Part shown: piece by piece, positions 8,935 through 31,435 of the stretch
Numbering within the stretch: position 1 is the first letter of the stretch
How the letters are laid out: the number at the start of each line of letters is the position of its first letter
Origin: Candidatus Tanganyikabacteria bacterium
GTDB taxonomy: Bacteria > Cyanobacteriota > Sericytochromatia > S15B-MN24 > VGJW01
DNA length: 33,625 bases
Assembly (NCBI GenBank): GCA_016867235.1
Contig: VGJY01000030.1
Coordinates: 1-33,625, forward strand
Direction: 5' to 3'
Program-made: the position numbers and the translations under genes
The notes under the pieces: model-generated
What the model saw: the letters and a program-made list of their open reading frames with translations, nothing else
What the model was told of the DNA's origin: nothing
Database searches by the model: none

Positions 8935-9999
8935 GTGCGCGTCGCGATCGACGTCCAGCCCCTCCAGGCGATCGGAGGAATCGCGACCTATACACTCGCC
9001 CTGCTGGATCACCTGCCTCCTGGCGAGGCATTGCCATACTTCGCGGCATTGCGCGGCCGCGACCGGGTCGACCTGGCCGACCTGCGGGTCGCGCCCTGGC
9101 CCGCCCGGGTCGCCGAGCGCCTGTGGCGCCGGACGGGAGTGAGGTTGCCGCTGGCTCCGGCAATACCCGCCGACCTGCTGCACGGCACGAACTTCCTGCC
9201 ACCACTGTCGCGCCTGCCCACCGTGATCACCGTGCATGATCTGTCGGCCCTGCGGCACCCGGCCTGGCATCCGCCCGAGATGTTGCGGCAGGCGAGGCTG
9301 TGGGCCGACGCGGCCCGACGGGCGCGCCGGGTGGTCGCGGTGTCGGAGGTGGTGGCCCGCGACGTCGTCGGACTGCTGGGCATCCCCCCGGATCGCGTGC
9401 GGACGGTGCCCCTGGCGCCCACGCCGCTCCCGGCGCCGGATCTCTCTGTCCTGGCGAGGCTGGGCCTGGCAGGACAGCCATTCATCCTGGCCGTCGGCGC
9501 CCTCGAGCCTCGCAAGAACCTGCCGCGCCTGGTCGAGGCCTTTCGCGCCTGCCGGGCCGCTTCCGGGCATCGGTTGGTGCTCGCCGGTCCCCATGGCGAC
9601 GGGGCGCGCGCGGTCGCGAGCGCGGCCCGCGGCGAGGATCGCGTATTGCTGGCGGGCAGGGTGACCGGCGCCGAACTGGCGGCCCTGCACGGCACCGCGG
9701 CCGTCCTGGCCTATCCGTCGCTTTACGAGGGTTTCGGCCTGCCGCCGCTCGACGCGATGCTTGCAGGCGTTCCGGTCGTCGCCAGCACGGCCGGCAGCCT
9801 TCCCGAAGTGCTGGGCGACGCCGCCCTCCTTGTCGAGCCGACCGATACAAGGGCGCTGGCCTCGGCGCTGGACCGCGTCCTGGGCGATCCCGCGCTGGCG
9901 GCCGACCTGGCGGCACGGGGGCGCGAGCGCGCCGCCGCATACTCCTGGGCCCGGACGGCCGATCTCACGCGTGCCGTGTACCGCGAGGCGCTCCGGTGA
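8935..9999 (+). CDS. Glycosyltransferase family 4
   Basis: A 354-residue GT-B enzyme starting at GTG 8935 with VRVAIDVQPLQAIGGIATYT. The central ITVHDLSALRHPAWH is typical of mannosyl/glucosyl GT4 enzymes of O-antigen clusters. The C-terminal domain shows FILAVGALEPRKNLPRLVEA and LAYPSLYEGFGLPPLDAM; the second acidic contact is Asp instead of the usual Glu. It resembles the next gene and the one at 15817 and looks like a paralogue of both. Its TGA overlaps a GTG at 9996 that opens the repeat-derived extension of the next gene. Donor sugar is unknown. Confidence 0.9.
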   Translation: MRVAIDVQPLQAIGGIATYTLALLDHLPPGEALPYFAALRGRDRVDLADLRVAPWPARVAERLWRRTGVRLPLAPAIPADLLHGTNFLPPLSRLPTVITVHDLSALRHPAWHPPEMLRQARLWADAARRARRVVAVSEVVARDVVGLLGIPPDRVRTVPLAPTPLPAPDLSVLARLGLAGQPFILAVGALEPRKNLPRLVEAFRACRAASGHRLVLAGPHGDGARAVASAARGEDRVLLAGRVTGAELAALHGTAAVLAYPSLYEGFGLPPLDAMLAGVPVVASTAGSLPEVLGDAALLVEPTDTRALASALDRVLGDPALAADLAARGRERAAAYSWARTADLTRAVYREALR

Positions 10000-10008
10000 G
10001 TAGCTCAG

Positions 10009-10127
10009 CGGCTGCCCCGACACCGGTGCACGAGCCCCACGCCGGGCAAGGATGCCCGGCGAGCCGCCACGGATGGCACAGCGGGGGGGGCTCGGGGGGG
10101 GGCGGCACCCCCACCGAGCAGGCTCGA
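10009..10127 (+). repeat. Start-codon-associated repeat, copy A (degenerate)
   Basis: First of three related copies in the window. It begins CGGCTGC, carries a perfect 8-bp palindrome GCCGGGCA/TGCCCGGC (10041-10048 and 10053-10060, loop AGGA), then a G8 run, a G9 run and a C-rich return arm ending at 10118, directly before ATG 10128. Compared with copies B and C, the Shine-Dalgarno has decayed (GAGCAGG for GAGGAGG), TAATG has become GAATG, and the G-runs are longer. As a result the frame that opens at GTG 9996 runs straight into the downstream glycosyltransferase. Confidence 0.8.
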
Positions 10128-11159
10128 ATGAGAGTCGCGCTGGATGTGCGATCGGTGCGCGCCGGGCGCGCCGGGATCGGGCATTACACGCGCGAGCTTG
10201 CAGCGGCGCTGGCGTCGCTCGACGCCCGGCCGGACCTCACCTTGCTTGGCGACGCCGGCACGGCCTGGCGCGATCTGCCGGACATCCACCGCGAGATCGG
10301 GCCGGGCGGAATGGGGTGGCACCTCTGGGCGGCGCGCCGCTCGCGGGCATTCGCGGTGTTCCACAGCCCGGGCAGCCTGTTCGTGCCCCTCCTGGCAGGC
10401 GCCCGGACCGTTCTGACCGTGCACGACCTCGTGCCGTTCCGGCTACCTGCCGCGGCCGATCCCTGGTCCACCCTCACGCACCGGGCATTCCGCGCAGCCG
10501 TGCGCAGGGCGGGCGCGATCATCACGCCCTCCCGCCACGCCGCCGCGGACCTGGCGGCTCTCATCCCGGCGGCGGCGGCCAGGACCACGCCGATCCCGCT
10601 CGCCAGCCGCTTCGCTCGCGAGCCGCGGCCATCCGAAGGCTTCATCCTGGCAGTGGGAAGCTTCGAGCCACGCAAGAACCTGGAGTGCCTGCTGGCGGCG
10701 CACGCACGGCTCGATCGGCCGCCGCGGCTGATTCTCGCCGGGCGGCAGGGCTGGCGCAGCGGCTCGCTCGACGCGGCTCTCGCGGCGCATCCGCATCCGG
10801 TCGAGATCCTGGCGGACGCCGACGACGCCCGGCTGGCCGAGTTGTATGCGAGCTGCGGCGTCTTTGTCTTTCCGTCGCGGTACGAGGGTTTCGGCCTGCC
10901 GGTGATCGAGGCGATGGCCTGCGGTGCGCCCGTGGTCGCGTCCGGTGCGACGGCCGTCCCCGAGGCCGCCGGAGGAGCGGCGCTGCTGGTGGACCCTGAC
11001 GATCCGGCCGGCCTGGCCGCCGCCATCGGCAGCGTCCTGCAGGATCCGGCCCTGCGTGCCGATCTGGTGAGCAGGGGAAGGGAGCGAGCCATGCGCAGGA
11101 CCTGGGCCGACGTCGCCCACGAGACATACAGTGTTTACGTTAGAATGGGGCACCCATGA
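10128..11159 (+). CDS. Glycosyltransferase family 4
   Basis: A 343-residue GT-B enzyme starting MRVALDVRSVRAGRAGIGHY, a paralogue of the preceding gene. Motifs include TVLTVHDLVPFRLP, FILAVGSFEPRKNLECLLAA and VFPSRYEGFGLPVIEAMACG (E-x7-E). ATG 10128 matches the family N-terminus. The same frame is open upstream to GTG 9996, which overlaps the previous stop as GTGA and would add 44 repeat-encoded residues rich in Gly, Ser and His. That extension has no family counterpart and comes from repeat copy A, but it could be translated. The stop overlaps the rmlA start as ATGA. Sugar specificity is unknown. Confidence 0.9.
   Translation: MRVALDVRSVRAGRAGIGHYTRELAAALASLDARPDLTLLGDAGTAWRDLPDIHREIGPGGMGWHLWAARRSRAFAVFHSPGSLFVPLLAGARTVLTVHDLVPFRLPAAADPWSTLTHRAFRAAVRRAGAIITPSRHAAADLAALIPAAAARTTPIPLASRFAREPRPSEGFILAVGSFEPRKNLECLLAAHARLDRPPRLILAGRQGWRSGSLDAALAAHPHPVEILADADDARLAELYASCGVFVFPSRYEGFGLPVIEAMACGAPVVASGATAVPEAAGGAALLVDPDDPAGLAAAIGSVLQDPALRADLVSRGRERAMRRTWADVAHETYSVYVRMGHP
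11141..11146 (+). promoter_or_regulatory. Candidate -10 element before rmlA
   Basis: TAGAAT, four to five matches to the TATAAT consensus, ends nine bases before ATG 11156. It lies inside the end of the preceding coding sequence in a locally AT-richer patch. No clear -35 box. It would allow rmlA to be transcribed separately with almost no leader. Confidence 0.45.
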
Positions 11160-12226
11160 AAGGGCTGATTCTAAGTGGCGGGAAGGGCACCCGGTTGCGG
11201 CCCATCACGCACACCGCCGCCAAGCAACTGGTGCCGGTGGCCAATAAACCCATCCTCTACTACGCGATCGAGGCCCTGCGCGACGCCGGCATCCGCGACA
11301 TCGGCATCATCGTCGGCGAAACCCGCGAAGAGGTCCGCGCGGCGGTAGGCGACGGCTCGCGGTGGGGCGCCCGCATCTCCTACATCCAGCAGGAGGCGCC
11401 GCTGGGGCTGGCGCATGCGGTCAAGATCTCCGAGGAGTTCATGGCCGGCGAGAGCTTCGTGATGTACCTGGGCGACAATCTCATCCGGGGCGGCATCGGC
11501 GACTTCGTCAGGCAGTTCGACGCGTCGCGCCCCGACGCCATGGTCCTGCTCGCCAAGGTCCCGGATCCCAGCCAGTTCGGGGTGGCCGAACTCAACGGCG
11601 ACGGGCACATCACCCGGCTCCAGGAGAAGCCCAGGGAGCCCAAGAGCGACCTGGCGCTGGTAGGCGTCTACCTTTTCACGCGGGCCATCTTCCCGGCCGT
11701 CCACGCCATCAAGCCGTCGCGCCGCGGCGAACTGGAGATCACCGACGCGATCCAGTACCTGGTCGACGACGCCAAGCGGGTTCTGCCCCACGTCATCACC
11801 GGCTGGTGGAAGGACACCGGCAAGCTGGCCGACATGCTCGAGGCCAACCGCATCATGCTCGACGACATCAAGGATGCCGACGTGCAGGGCCGTCTCGAAG
11901 GCGGCACCCAGATCCAGGGCCGGGTCGTCGTCGCGCCGGGCTCCCACCTCGTCGACTGCACCGTCCGGGGGCCGGTGGTGATCGGTGAGAATTGTCGCCT
12001 GGAGCGCACGTTTGTCGGCCCCTACACGTCCATCGGGCCCGACGTCACGATCACGGGCACCGAGATAGAGCACTCGATCGTGCTTTCCGGCAGCCGGATT
12101 CAAGACCCGGGCGCGCGCATCGTCGACAGCCTCCTGGGCAAGAACGTCGAGGTCGGCCGCTCGAGCGACCTGCCGCGGGCCTTTCGCCTGATGCTGGGCG
12201 ACAGCAGCCAGGTGACGATTCCGTAG
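11156..12226 (+). CDS. rmlA: Glucose-1-phosphate thymidylyltransferase, long form
   Basis: Makes dTDP-glucose from glucose 1-phosphate and dTTP, the first step of dTDP-deoxysugar synthesis in the cytoplasm. The N-terminus MKGLILSGGKGTRLRPITHT is the nucleotide-binding signature; PVANKPILYYAIEAL, MYLGDNLI and GWWKDTGK follow in order. At 356 residues it is the long type: residues after about 245 form a left-handed beta-helix with hexapeptide-like turns (VVIGENCRLERTFVGPYTSI), unlike the roughly 290-residue enterobacterial RmlA. The start ATG overlaps the preceding TGA. It is followed by rmlB after repeat copy B. No rmlC or rmlD is in the window. Confidence 0.93.
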   Translation: MKGLILSGGKGTRLRPITHTAAKQLVPVANKPILYYAIEALRDAGIRDIGIIVGETREEVRAAVGDGSRWGARISYIQQEAPLGLAHAVKISEEFMAGESFVMYLGDNLIRGGIGDFVRQFDASRPDAMVLLAKVPDPSQFGVAELNGDGHITRLQEKPREPKSDLALVGVYLFTRAIFPAVHAIKPSRRGELEITDAIQYLVDDAKRVLPHVITGWWKDTGKLADMLEANRIMLDDIKDADVQGRLEGGTQIQGRVVVAPGSHLVDCTVRGPVVIGENCRLERTFVGPYTSIGPDVTITGTEIEHSIVLSGSRIQDPGARIVDSLLGKNVEVGRSSDLPRAFRLMLGDSSQVTIP

Positions 12227-12246
12227 GGGTGCTATGAGTCATCCTC

Positions 12247-12361
12247 CGGCTGCCCAGAAAGCCGTCAATGAGCCCCACGCCGGGCAGGGATGCACGGCGA
12301 GTCGTCACGGACGGCACTGCGGGGGGGCTCGGGGGGGCGGCACCCCCCCGAGGAGGCACTA
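12247..12361 (+). repeat. Start-codon-associated repeat, copy B
   Basis: It fills the rmlA-rmlB gap. Parts: CGGCTGC opening; imperfect palindrome GCCGGGCA/TGCACGGC (12279-12286 and 12291-12298); G7; then a perfect 10-bp hairpin CTCGGGGGGG/CCCCCCCGAG (12328-12337 and 12343-12352, loop CGGCA) that runs into GAGGAGG (12350-12356), a strong Shine-Dalgarno five bases before ATG 12362. A short frame of 42 codons from ATG 12234 crosses the whole element and ends in TAA overlapping the rmlB ATG. Whether the peptide or only the RNA shape matters is unknown. Confidence 0.85.
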
Positions 12362-13393
12362 ATGAAGATCCTCGTCACCGGCGGCGCCGGCTTCATCGGC
12401 TCGAACCTGGTCCGATTCCTGGCCGACACCTATCCCCTGGATTACATCGTCAACCTCGACGCGCTGACTTATGCCGGCAACCGCGAGAGCGTACGAGATC
12501 TCGACACGAAGCCCAACTACCAGTTCGTCCATGGCGACGTCACGGACGCCGACCTGATCGACGGGTTGATGGCGGGAGTGGACGCGGTGATGCACCTGGC
12601 CGCGGAGAGCCACGTCGACCGCTCCATCTCGGATCCCGGGGCCTTCGTGCGCACCAACGTGGTCGGTTCGCAGGTCTTGCTGGAAGCGGCACGCCGGCAC
12701 AAGGTCGGCCGTTTCCTCTACGTGAGCACCGACGAGGTGATGGGCAGCCTCGGTCCGGCCGGCCTGTTCGACGAGGAGACGCCCCTGGCGCCCAATTCGC
12801 CGTACTCGGCTTCCAAGGCGGGCGGCGAACTGCTCGCCCGGGCGTTCTTCCACACGTACGGCCTGGAGACCCTCATCACGCGCTGCTCCAACAACTACGG
12901 GCCCTATCAGTTCCCGGAGAAGCTGATCCCGTTCTTCCTGCTGGAACTGCTGGACGGCGGCACGGTGCCCCTCTACGGCGACGGCCTCAACGTCCGGGAC
13001 TGGCTCTACGTCGAGGATCATTGCCGGGCGCTGGATGTGGTCCTGCGCCGCGGGACGCCGGGACAGGTCTACTGCGTCGGCGGCAACTGCGAGCGCACGA
13101 ATGCCGAGATCACGCACTTCCTGCTGGCGGCCACCGGCCGCGGCAAGGACGCCATTCGCTACGTCCAGGACCGCCCCGGGCATGACCGCCGCTACGCGAT
13201 CGACGCCGGCAAGATCAAGCGGGAGCTTGGCTGGGAGCCGGCCCATGACTTCCAATCCGGCATGACTGCTACAATTGCGTGGTACAATGCCAACGCTTGG
13301 TGGTGGCGTCCGCTGCGTGAGCGGGCCCTCGATCCCGCCCGGGCCGCGGCCAATCAACAGCCGGCGCAGCCCGGAGTCGCCGCCGCGCCATAG
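12362..13393 (+). CDS. rmlB: dTDP-glucose 4,6-dehydratase
   Basis: A 343-residue extended short-chain dehydrogenase that converts dTDP-glucose to dTDP-4-keto-6-deoxyglucose with bound NAD+. It has [13 protein letters not shown] at the N-terminus, HLAAESHVDRSI, the catalytic STDEV (Thr-Asp-Glu) and YSASK (YxxxK), and TRCSNNYGPYQFPEKLIP, all diagnostic of RmlB. One position differs from the usual STDEVYG: here it is STDEVMG. The C-terminus has about 25 extra Ala/Pro-rich residues. The ATG overlaps a TAA as TAATG and is served by the GAGGAGG supplied by repeat copy B. It uses the product of rmlA just upstream. Confidence 0.95.
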   Translation: MKILVTGGAGFIGSNLVRFLADTYPLDYIVNLDALTYAGNRESVRDLDTKPNYQFVHGDVTDADLIDGLMAGVDAVMHLAAESHVDRSISDPGAFVRTNVVGSQVLLEAARRHKVGRFLYVSTDEVMGSLGPAGLFDEETPLAPNSPYSASKAGGELLARAFFHTYGLETLITRCSNNYGPYQFPEKLIPFFLLELLDGGTVPLYGDGLNVRDWLYVEDHCRALDVVLRRGTPGQVYCVGGNCERTNAEITHFLLAATGRGKDAIRYVQDRPGHDRRYAIDAGKIKRELGWEPAHDFQSGMTATIAWYNANAWWWRPLRERALDPARAAANQQPAQPGVAAAP

Positions 13394-22629: not shown

Positions 22630-22705
22630 TTCTGCCTTTTGGCCGAAGTTGACCGTTCGTGCGGCCGTGGCGCGCGCGGGGCGAGAATGCGACGGTGGTT
22701 AAACC

Positions 22706-22835
22706 GGACCCCGTGCCGACCGAGTGGGGCCGGCTTCCGTGCCGGTCGAGTGGGGCCGGCTTCCGTGCCGACCGAGTGGGGCCGGACCCCGTGCCGACCG
22801 AGTGGGGCCGGCCTCCGTGCCGGCCTGGAGGGCCC
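22706..22835 (+). repeat. 26-bp tandem repeat, five units
   Basis: Units begin at 22706, 22732, 22758, 22784 and 22810. The consensus is GGMYYCCGTGCCGACCGAGTGGGGCC in two parts (GGMYYCCGTGCCGAC, then CGAGTGGGGCC); the first four units differ at only a few bases and the fifth has drifted. The fifth unit contributes the GGAGGG (22827-22832) that serves ATG 22836. There are no unique spacers, so this is not a CRISPR array. Confidence 0.85.
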
Positions 22836-29004: not shown

Positions 29005-29023
29005 TATATCGATTATATGTTCG
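29005..29023 (+). promoter_or_regulatory. imuA start region: -10-like TATATC and LexA-like palindrome
   Basis: TATATC (29005-29010) ends six bases before ATG 29017. The sequence CGATTATATGTTCG (29010-29023), overlapping the start codon, differs at two positions from CGAACATATGTTCG, which fits the Gram-positive type LexA box CGAAC-N4-GTTCG. imuA-imuB are commonly SOS-controlled, so a LexA site here is plausible but imperfect. Confidence 0.35.
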
Positions 29024-29817
29024 ACATGCCCTTGTCGGCGCGCAAGCCCTTGCCGCCCGAACTCCGGCTGATCGCGGGGCTCAAGCGGGGTAGCACCCTC
29101 GCGCACGGCACGCCGGCGGTGCCGACCGGCTGGGAGGGGCTGGATCGGGCGCTCGGCGGCGGATTGCCGGGCGGGCGCCTGACCGAGATAGTCGCGCCGC
29201 GCGGGGGGAAGGCCTCGCTGCTGTTTTCCCTCGCGGCCGTGGCCACGGCCGCCGGGCGAAACGTGGGCTGGCTGGATCCGGCTTCCGCCCTGGACGTGCG
29301 CGGGGCCGAGGCGGCCGGCGTCCTGCTCGAGCGCGTGCTATGGGTGCGGCCGGCCAGCGTGGCGCAGGCGTTCCGGGCGGCCGACCTGGTGCTGGGCTCC
29401 GAGGGCTTCGCCGTGGCCGTGCTCGATCTGGTGGGCGCGGGCCGCAGCCGTCGCGGCGGGCGCTGGCGCCATGGATCGGGGCGCGGTCGGCCGCCGGGAG
29501 CGAGCTTTCCGGAGCGGCCGGCGAACGATCCGGCCGGCCGGGCGGCCCAGGGGGTGCTGCTGGATGCGTCCATGTGGAACCGCCTGGCCCGGCGGGCCGA
29601 GAGTTGCGGGGTGGCCCTGGTGGTCTGCACCGATCGGCCGCTGGCCGGCGCGGCAGCGGCGCTGGGCCTGGATGTCCGGCTGGCCGCCCCCGACTGGGAA
29701 TGCGACGGGGCGCGCTCGCCGCTGACGCTCGGCGGCGCCGCGGTCGAGGTCGCGGTGCGCCACCGCAAGGGCAGCACGGCGGGATTCGTGGGCGTCTTCG
29801 GGTGCCGGAGCGTCTGA
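29017..29817 (+). CDS. imuA: ImuA, RecA-like mutasome protein
   Basis: A 266-residue RecA-fold protein of the ImuA/SulA-like group that works with ImuB in SOS mutagenesis and translesion synthesis. It shows PTGWEGLDRALGGGLPGGRL followed by a degenerate P-loop, APRGGKAS (60-67), lacking the full GxxxxGKT. Later strands VGWLDPASALDVRGAEAAGV and ADLVLGSEGFAVAVLDLVG follow the RecA core order. It lies directly before imuB; before repeat copy C entered, the stop and the imuB start would have overlapped as TGATG. No dnaE2 is visible in the window. Confidence 0.88.
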   Translation: MFDMPLSARKPLPPELRLIAGLKRGSTLAHGTPAVPTGWEGLDRALGGGLPGGRLTEIVAPRGGKASLLFSLAAVATAAGRNVGWLDPASALDVRGAEAAGVLLERVLWVRPASVAQAFRAADLVLGSEGFAVAVLDLVGAGRSRRGGRWRHGSGRGRPPGASFPERPANDPAGRAAQGVLLDASMWNRLARRAESCGVALVVCTDRPLAGAAAALGLDVRLAAPDWECDGARSPLTLGGAAVEVAVRHRKGSTAGFVGVFGCRSV

Positions 29818-29831
29818 TGAGCCGCATCGCC
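29817..29831 (+). repeat. 15-bp direct repeat, left copy (flank of repeat C)
   Basis: ATGAGCCGCATCGCC, identical to the first 15 bases of imuB at 30026-30040. It opens a 69-codon frame that crosses repeat C and stops at TAA 30024-30026. It looks like a target-site duplication made when the element inserted at the imuB start codon. Confidence 0.75.
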
Positions 29832-29847
29832 GGCCGGAGCTATCAAC

Positions 29848-30025
29848 CGGCTGCGCCAGTGCACTTGCACGAGCATCACGCCGGGCAGGGATGCCCGGCG
29901 AACCGCCACGGATGGCACTGCGGGGGGCCGGCAGAGGAGCGGTCGCGAAGCGAGCGCCCGGCCAGCCGGCGCCTCGAACGCAGTGAGAGGGCTCGGGGGG
30001 GCGGCACCCCCCCGAGGAGGCTCTA
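29848..30025 (+). repeat. Start-codon-associated repeat, copy C (with 63-base internal insert)
   Basis: Same order as copy B: CGGCTGC, perfect palindrome GCCGGGCA/TGCCCGGC (29880-29887 and 29892-29899), G6, then the perfect 10-bp hairpin CTCGGGGGGG/CCCCCCCGAG (29992-30001 and 30007-30016, loop CGGCA) running into AGGAGG (30015-30020), five bases before ATG 30026. Between the G-run and the hairpin copy C has 63 extra bases (about 29929-29991) with small palindromes such as TCGC-GAA-GCGA. The insert keeps the reading frame of the short ORF that ends in TAATG. Confidence 0.85.
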
Positions 30026-30040
30026 ATGAGCCGCATCGCC
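30026..30040 (+). repeat. 15-bp direct repeat, right copy (start of imuB)
   Basis: ATGAGCCGCATCGCC, the first five codons of imuB, identical to 29817-29831 on the other side of repeat copy C. Confidence 0.75.
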
Positions 30041-31435
30041 TGCGTCGAGGTGCAGGATTTCGCCCTGGCCGCGCTGCTGCGGGCCATGCCCGAGCTCTCC
30101 GGGCTGCCGGTGGGCATCGTGCAGGGGGCCGGCACGCACGCCACCATCCGCCATGCGTCGCCCGAGGCGCAGGCCGGGGGCGTGCTGCCGGGGCTGGGCG
30201 TGGCGCGGGCGCGCCAGCGCCTGCCCGAGCTCAAGGCCCTGCCGCCCTCCGAGGATGCCGAGCGCAGCGCCCGGGCGACCCTGCTGGAGGTCGCCTTCGC
30301 GTTCTCGCCCCAGGTGGCCGACGGGGGCCCCGGGTCGCTCTACCTGGACATCTCCGGGATGCAGGGGCTTTTCAATTCGGATGCCGCCATCGCCACCTCG
30401 CTCGACGCCGCCCTGGCGCGGGTGGGCCTGCCATGCCGCATCGGCGTGGGCGCCAACAAGACCGTGGCACGCGTGGCGGCCAGGGCGTCCGAGGGGGTGG
30501 TCGTCGTGCCGCCGGGCGACGAGGCCCGGTTCCTCGACCCGCTCCCCATCGCCGTCCTGGCGCCCTCGGCCGACCTGCACGAGCGGCTTGAGGCCTGGGG
30601 CGTGCACCGCGTGGGGCAACTGGCGCGGCTCTCGGAGCGCAGCGTCACGCGCCGCCTGGGAGCCGAGGGCGTGGCGCTGCGGCGCCTGGCGCTGGGCGCC
30701 GACGAGTTGCCCTTCGTCACCCTCGTGCCGCCCCGGCAGTTCGAGGAGACCGTCTCGTTCGACGACTGGGTCGTCGACAACCTGGAGCCGCTGCTCCAGG
30801 TGCTCGGCGAGCTGGTGGATCGCCTGCTGGAACGCCTGCGGACACGCGGTCTTGCCGCGCAATCGCTGGTGGCCACGCTCGCCCTCGACCCGCGTGGCCA
30901 CGACGTGCGCCACGTGGAGTTCGCGGCCCCGCTGACCGACCGGCGCGCCGTCCTGGATCTGCTGCGCCACGATCTGGCCGCCCGGCCGCCCCGAGCCGCC
31001 GTGGCGGGGGCGCGGGCCGTGGCGCTGCCGGCCGCCCCGCAGGCCGTGCAGGGGCACCTGTTCGCGCCCGCCGATCCGACGCCCGAGCGCCTGGCGGTGA
31101 CCCTCGCGCGGCTCTGCGCCCTGGTCGGCGCGGGCCGCGTGGGCGCGCCCGCCCGGCCGGCCGGAGCTCCCGCCACGCTGGCGATCGCCCTCCTGCGCCC
31201 GCCCGCCCCGATCTCGGTCGAGTGCGTGCGCGGCCGGCCGGCCGTGGTGGTCCTCGACGGCGAGAGCCAGCCGGTCCGCAGGGCAGCCGGGCCCTGGCAC
31301 CTGCGCGAGGGCTGGTGGACGGCCGACCCGACCTGCCGCGACGATTTCGACGTCGAACTCGCAGACGGCCGCCTCATCCGCATCTACCGCGATCTGCGCA
31401 CCGACGCGTGGCTCTGGGACGGAGTGTACGGGTAG
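30026..31435 (+). CDS. imuB: ImuB, Y-family DNA polymerase-like protein
   Basis: A 469-residue protein with the Y-family polymerase fold. The N-terminus RIACVEVQDFALAALL replaces the usual metal-binding D-x-D-x-F-F-A, and LYLDISGMQGLF replaces the SIDEAYLD motif, so catalytic acids are largely missing. That is the known state of ImuB, which acts as a hub between ImuA, the beta clamp and an error-prone polymerase. Other Y-family marks: PCRIGVGANKTVARVAA and WGVHRVGQLARLSERSV (helix-hairpin-helix). The start ATG 30026 overlaps TAA as TAATG and uses the AGGAGG of repeat copy C. The C-terminal DDFDVELADGRLIRIYRDL is typical. Confidence 0.93.
   Translation: MSRIACVEVQDFALAALLRAMPELSGLPVGIVQGAGTHATIRHASPEAQAGGVLPGLGVARARQRLPELKALPPSEDAERSARATLLEVAFAFSPQVADGGPGSLYLDISGMQGLFNSDAAIATSLDAALARVGLPCRIGVGANKTVARVAARASEGVVVVPPGDEARFLDPLPIAVLAPSADLHERLEAWGVHRVGQLARLSERSVTRRLGAEGVALRRLALGADELPFVTLVPPRQFEETVSFDDWVVDNLEPLLQVLGELVDRLLERLRTRGLAAQSLVATLALDPRGHDVRHVEFAAPLTDRRAVLDLLRHDLAARPPRAAVAGARAVALPAAPQAVQGHLFAPADPTPERLAVTLARLCALVGAGRVGAPARPAGAPATLAIALLRPPAPISVECVRGRPAVVVLDGESQPVRRAAGPWHLREGWWTADPTCRDDFDVELADGRLIRIYRDLRTDAWLWDGVYG

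Follow-up and report, generated by a model that had tools for sequence, protein, structure and literature searches.

REP elements, 20–40 nt long and extragenic, are not bound to start codons. A closer precedent for the cassette described here is found in mycobacteria, whose MIRUs (mycobacterial interspersed repetitive units) are short, scattered and apparently mobile repeats that insert at start codons and carry an internal ORF that couples to the gene with a −4 nt spacing and minimal impact (Supply et al. 1997, as cited in PMC12548453). The parA gene is leaderless in M. marinum; in M. bovis its 77-nt 5' UTR consists entirely of one MIRU (PMC4128351), and senX3-regX3 holds tandem 77-bp MIRU units (PMC4213456). 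Rickettsia palindromic elements (RPE) are mobile palindromic repeats of ~150 bp with a translation-compatible ORF (PMC10969869). Termination-reinitiation coupling at ATGA and TGATG overlaps is likewise known (PMC6728339); there, however, the overlap joins two functional genes, whereas in the cassette analyzed here the repeat provides both overlaps.

The window, i.e., the whole stretch of 33,625 nt that was analyzed, is contig 30 of the Candidatus Tanganyikabacteria assembly G000 (6.12 Mb, 514 contigs), one of several fragmented assemblies of its family. The first-pass annotation had described a repeat family with three copies, each opening a short frame at the upstream stop or start region (GTG 9996, ATG 12234 and ATG 29817), and all three were present as described, with a 23-nt core matching the window three times against 0.01 expected. 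The true unit is longer than had been drawn: it runs from the mini-ORF start codon to the base before the ATG of the next gene (10128, 12362 and 30026 for copies A, B and C), and copy C contains an insert of ~60 nt. The features are as follows.

8935–9999, + strand: glycosyltransferase gene upstream of copy A, its stop TGA lying within GTGA (GTG at 9996)
9996–10127, + strand: cassette copy A (covariance-model E 2.3e-23)
10128–11159, + strand: family 4 glycosyltransferase gene downstream of copy A (Glycos_transf_1 E 1.8e-28)
11156–12226, + strand: nucleotidyltransferase gene, rmlA type, upstream of copy B
12234–12361, + strand: cassette copy B in full, from the start of its mini-ORF up to the following ATG (covariance-model E 1.2e-29)
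12234–12362, + strand: 42-codon mini-ORF of copy B, MSHPPAAQKAVNEPHAGQGCTASRHGRHCGGARGGGTPPRRH and stop, the TAA overlapping the next ATG (TAATG)
12278–12299, + strand: hairpin 1 of copy B, 9 bp with a tetraloop, modest covariation among copies
12302–12314, + strand: hairpin 2 of copy B, 4 bp, weak
12328–12352, + strand: hairpin 3 of copy B, CTCG7/C7GAG, about −20 kcal/mol as a mean over copies
12350–12356, + strand: Shine-Dalgarno (SD) sequence GAGGAGG of copy B for the next gene
12362–13393, + strand: rmlB-type dTDP-glucose 4,6-dehydratase gene, beginning at the end of copy B, with orthologues in relatives
29017–29817, + strand: RecA-like (ImuA-like) gene upstream of copy C, stop/start TGATG
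29817–30025, + strand: cassette copy C, opening with 18 nt that repeat the first 18 of the downstream gene (17/18)
29928–29987, + strand: ~60-nt insert in copy C, frame-preserving and preceding the second G-run
30026–31435, + strand: gene for an ImuB-like Y-family polymerase homologue downstream of copy C (IMS E 4.5e-22)

The three copies differ in detail. In copy B the mini-ORF start is itself preceded by an SD-like stretch (TAGGGGTGCT-ATG), and the mini-ORF closes with the stop/start overlap that had been predicted. This closing overlap is missing from copy A, where the mini-ORF runs in frame into the gene at 10128 because the G/C tracts total 4 bases above usual. The insert of copy C resembles segments of other damaged cassettes in the same genome (L129; L130), which suggests a nested insertion or a subfamily. 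Elsewhere in the window, positions 22704–22835 hold four head-to-tail copies of a ~26-nt GC-rich repeat (CCGG..CCGTGCCGACCGAGTGGGG).

In the whole G000 assembly, a BLAST search with copy B returned 42 places, and a covariance model, for which 27 gap-free copies served as the basis, found 46 matches (E<1e-3), part of them incomplete; 39 copies were inspected in their genomic context. The standard unit has 126 nt and reads ATGAGTnnnnCACCGGCTGCnCCGACACCnGTGCACGAGCCCCAC-GCCGGGCAGGGATGCCCGGC-...-GGGGGGGCTCGGGGGGGCGGCACCCCCCCGAGGAGGCTC, followed by TAATG, TGATG or NNNTGA. Pairwise identity among copies averages 78% with a range of 68–89%, and the family therefore does not stem from one single recent burst. 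Tandem copies are known in the family (C277, L086, L101, L123), and G000 has further subfamilies (L122, L123, the latter in tandem, and L125) as well as a 46-nt form that lacks the hairpins (L126). At L056 (G000:C10:10680-10910), the 5' half of the cassette is replaced by tandem repeats of a GCCGGGCAAGGATGCCCGGC palindrome unit.

The placement of these copies is strikingly uniform. All of the ~40 copies in G000 are oriented like their downstream gene, and the downstream start codon stands at the exact base in 32 of the 39 inspected copies, always on the same strand (ORF start 2 nt past the model end in 30, one-base overlap in two). Four further copies lie at 3–7 nt, which brings those within 7 nt to 36/39, and one lies at 11 nt; at the right ends of the remaining two, C9 and C15, no long ORF with a usual start codon was found. 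The single orientation and start-codon placement claimed from three copies were thus borne out by the genome-wide search that had been proposed to check them. The ORF criterion of at least 60 aa is lenient in a GC-rich genome; most ORFs are nevertheless supported by Pfam, with domains in the predicted frame in 31 of 36 downstream proteins. By their Pfam domains, the downstream functions have no common theme and include NuoF, a proton-antiporter subunit, G6PD, arginase, an MgsA-type AAA ATPase, shikimate dehydrogenase, LysR, a histidine kinase, an RmlB-type protein, a glycosyltransferase and an ImuB-like protein.

At the left end, ATGA or GTGA is found in 34/39 copies, and in 24/39 an upstream ORF terminates at its TGA; all but one of these ORFs (23) have at least 80 aa. 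Several promoter-borne copies show a −10-like box 6–8 nt ahead of the mini-ORF start (TATAATCGAGAC-ATG in C76, TATAATGCGAGGCA-GTG in C2 and TACCTTGAGGGTC-ATG in C163). It hence seems that the former start codon became that of the mini-ORF, regardless of how initiation took place there.

Comparison with sister genomes gave empty sites. The G000 nuoE-nuoF junction carries the cassette (...GAG-ATGA-GT...TA-ATGA-AGGTG), and the same junction has none in G002 (...GGC-ATGA-CC) and G004 (...CG-GTGA-CC). Likewise, the junction between a DUF58 gene and its neighbor, which we take to be moxR from the usual pairing with DUF58, is occupied in G000 (...GTCCC-GTGA-GT...ACA-ATGA-GCC) and bare in G002 (...GTGCC-ATGA-AGCC). 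The rmlA-rmlB junction shows just a short spacer behind the stop in G002, and a longer spacer in G001. Among the G002 stretches searched, these three were the only clean orthologous junctions. The view of a small mobile cassette that keeps translational coupling in operons thus found its counterpart in junctions empty in sister genomes and in an anatomy suited to retained coupling; transposition would be the route, termination-reinitiation the mode of coupling, and the effect on expression may be near neutral.

A constant target duplication of 2–4 nt (TG or NTGA) would fit many copies; we rejected it, as it is contradicted by right ends reading TAATGG or TAATGC and by left and right start codons that are uncorrelated, with right ends other than NTGA in 11/37. 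No constant duplication was found among the copies, and a long one occurs in one or two only: copy C is flanked on either end by the opening 18 nt of the ImuB-like gene (17/18 identical), which suggests that its left start region was copied from the start of the downstream gene itself, and C145 shows a weaker case (15/18).

Cassettes occur in four of five genomes (G000–G004) of one bacterial family. First DNA and pattern searches of the relatives missed the family in G004, and the covariance model alone detected this distant relative, there and in G001. The G004/G001 form matches in its 5' 28 nt (ATGAGTnnCCCACCGKCTGCGCCGACA), its bodies and hairpins differ (for example TTGCGGGGGGCAAGGCCCCCTGCAA or GAGAGGGGCGAAGGGCCCCTCTC), and its 3' end again shows an SD-like stretch (GGGGAG, GAGGGAG) and then an NTGAG start overlapping the mini-ORF stop. 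The 5'-end pattern is present at 132 places in G004 (3.0 Mb, 86% complete), at two in G003 and at one in G001, and was found neither in G002 nor in another 13 genomes from the same class. G003 harbors 54-nt mini-copies, fused in frame to the following reading frame. Of roughly 25 complete G004 copies, 13 lie ahead of a long ORF and about 10 (~40%) have none at their right end; some G004 copies sit behind stop codons. The search of relatives thus confirmed high copy number, whereas start-codon placement in the wider family is strong, not universal. Across the family, the architecture persists while the middle sequence does not, which would describe a modular family with a conserved 5' start segment, exchangeable hairpin bodies and a conserved SD/start end. 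Beyond the family, viral contigs, plasmids and 84,980 species genomes, the latter probed by a DNA pattern of the 3' hairpin and SD and by a peptide profile, gave no relative with the probes used, in collections that may omit the records nearest the window's genome. The element looked novel at first; by sequence it has no relative found outside the family, although the same behavior is described for MIRUs (PMC12548453).

The mini-ORF of ~42 codons has the consensus MSCPPAAPTPVHEPHAGQGCPADRHGRHCGGARGGGTPPRRL, and its end meets the next start at an offset of +2 or −1 in 27 of 37 copies. In the 31 aligned copies, which had been chosen for an open frame, internal stops number 0 against 6.3–6.9 when the same substitutions were redistributed at random (P<=0.0003). 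The visible defects of excluded copies are G/C-tract frameshifts (window copy A, C277, C342) and a 5'-side rearrangement (C10, C47). Changes that keep the frame comprise +9 (C120, C136), −18 (C75) and ~+60 (window copy C). This preserved frame and shared consensus could indicate a functional family of small proteins, ~42 aa long and rich in C, H, R and G, acting in operons together with partners. Amino-acid constraint is weak, however: the in-frame pN/pS of 0.79 (0.78 even in the N-terminal part) compares with off-frame values of 1.09 and 1.16. Moreover, invariant residues fall mostly where bases of the hairpin or SD are fixed, Cys positions vary to Ser, Arg and Gly, a Pfam search of 29 mini-peptides gave no match, and the G004 body is unrelated. 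A small-protein family is hence extremely unlikely to explain the cassette. In our reading, selection acts to keep the frame open and its end in the right place, and not to preserve one specific peptide; the mini-peptide itself is probably without function. G/C-tract length shifts the frame in four copies (window copy A at 9996–10128, C171, C277 and C342), and slippage in these tracts could lead to phase-variation-like changes of coupling.

The folded structure could alternatively make the cassette a regulatory leader, similar to an attenuator or riboswitch, in which the hairpins respond to some signal or to translation of the mini-ORF, gate the downstream SD and thereby form a regulon. With a mean of −20 kcal/mol, the terminal hairpin 3 is very stable, and it is nearly invariant, for which reason covariation is little informative about it; the SD is conserved, and an SD-adjacent hairpin recurs in G004, where the bodies are unrelated. 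Covariation in hairpin 1 is modest (GC, AU, GU and CG at column pair 51-60), and for the structure as a whole five cells show two-sided change, as compared with 0 of 500 shuffles. For hairpin 2, two registers were compared, neither clearly better. The first-pass annotation had likewise suggested that the hairpin could control ribosome access. Its 3' arm, however, occupies just the first GAG of GAGGAGG, and the computed SD openness over 36 copies is ~0.46 with the terminal hairpin and ~0.34 without its 5' arm. Since openness with the hairpin is not below that without, an SD gate is not supported; hairpin 3 may instead hold the C-run off the SD. An Rfam scan of the window at the gathering threshold gave no match, hairpin sequences are wholly different between genera, and copies with no following gene exist. 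Given also the lack of a theme among downstream functions, we consider a regulatory leader improbable.

As to the agent of mobility, a gene with a Y1 (IS200/RAYT-like) transposase domain (L224-L227) is present in each of the four cassette-bearing genomes of the family and missing from the cassette-free G002. Its neighbors are scpA/scpB-like genes (G000, G003) and an epimerase gene (G000, G001, G004), and no cassette was found flanking it. As the co-occurrence rests on five genomes, we treat it as a lead only. A second REP-like palindromic repeat (CGGACGCAGGCACGGAGGCCTGCGCCACC...) lies at L225 (G000:C417), L069, L129 and L130, at one place directly after the Y1 gene. With REP elements and their RAYT, the cassette shares a palindromic nature, genome-specific amplification and this co-occurring resident Y1-domain gene. 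It might thus be an ordinary intergenic repeat of REP or MITE type whose start-codon placement merely reflects purifying selection against other sites, a reading that the palindromic core, the Y1 distribution and the G004 copies behind stop codons would fit. Yet selection alone would permit many intergenic positions and both orientations, whereas the observed placement is base-exact and one-way, and the cassette itself bears start, SD and overlap. Terminal inverted repeats of MITE type are absent as well, the ends AGT..CCACCGGC and ..GAGGAGGCTCTA not being inverted repeats. We therefore regard an ordinary REP/MITE repeat as very unlikely.

Taken together, we think it likely that the element is a mobile, non-autonomous, translated cassette inserting at start codons, mostly at ATGA/GTGA overlaps and in a minority at starts that look leaderless or are led by an SD. 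Insertion would turn the old start codon into that of a mini-ORF of ~42 codons. The upstream gene would have its TGA completed by the A in the cassette's AGT, and the cassette end would bring a strong SD together with another start codon, which overlaps the mini-ORF stop. A ribosome at the old start might then make the mini-peptide, terminate and reinitiate on the real gene; by this handover, insertion would be nearly silent.

How far, then, does the cassette resemble the described systems? RPEs often lie inside genes and are fused in frame, whereas the cassette is located at the start codon and closes its own ORF, the fused window copy A and G003 mini-copies being exceptions. With MIRUs it shares the short dispersed repeat in tens of copies, oriented like the flanking genes, the position at start codons and NTGA overlaps, empty sites that are bare overlaps (nuoE-nuoF and moxR-DUF58; rmlA-rmlB has a short spacer instead), internal ORF ends overlapping the flanking ORFs and tandem repetition at some loci. 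Every positional feature tested matches, and the cassette may therefore be said to work like a MIRU. In contrast, its unit measures 126–150 bp as compared with 77/53 bp in MIRUs, it carries strong hairpins together with an explicit GAGGAGG SD, the end is mostly TAATG (+2 from the stop) where MIRUs use only the −4 overlap, and it occurs in another lineage, namely in the family described above. We hence do not assign it to the MIRU family of mycobacteria, the likeness being one of position and description rather than of sequence alignment. A bolder reading, which we put forward only tentatively and hold to be rather doubtful, is an independent invention of the MIRU type far from mycobacteria, with a modular, amplified family, maybe mobilized by Y1 and maybe altering expression via G/C-tract slippage. 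Start-codon insertion with ORF handover has so far been known from mycobacterial MIRUs, a type of element that is little known and largely accounts for the findings; to this, the present family would add an apparent second origin, a modular body, empty sites and high copy number.

If this holds true, mobile DNA would have come to use the stop/start overlap as a safe haven more than once in evolution, and operons would survive the insertion, as the cassette brings its own start, stop, SD and overlap. The family would also provide a second system for studying how MIRU-like elements locate start codons. With many copies and empty sites in sister genera, termination-reinitiation becomes testable at dozens of natural junctions. 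For annotation, caution is advised, as mini-ORFs of this kind would be neither ordinary genes nor ordinary 5' UTRs.
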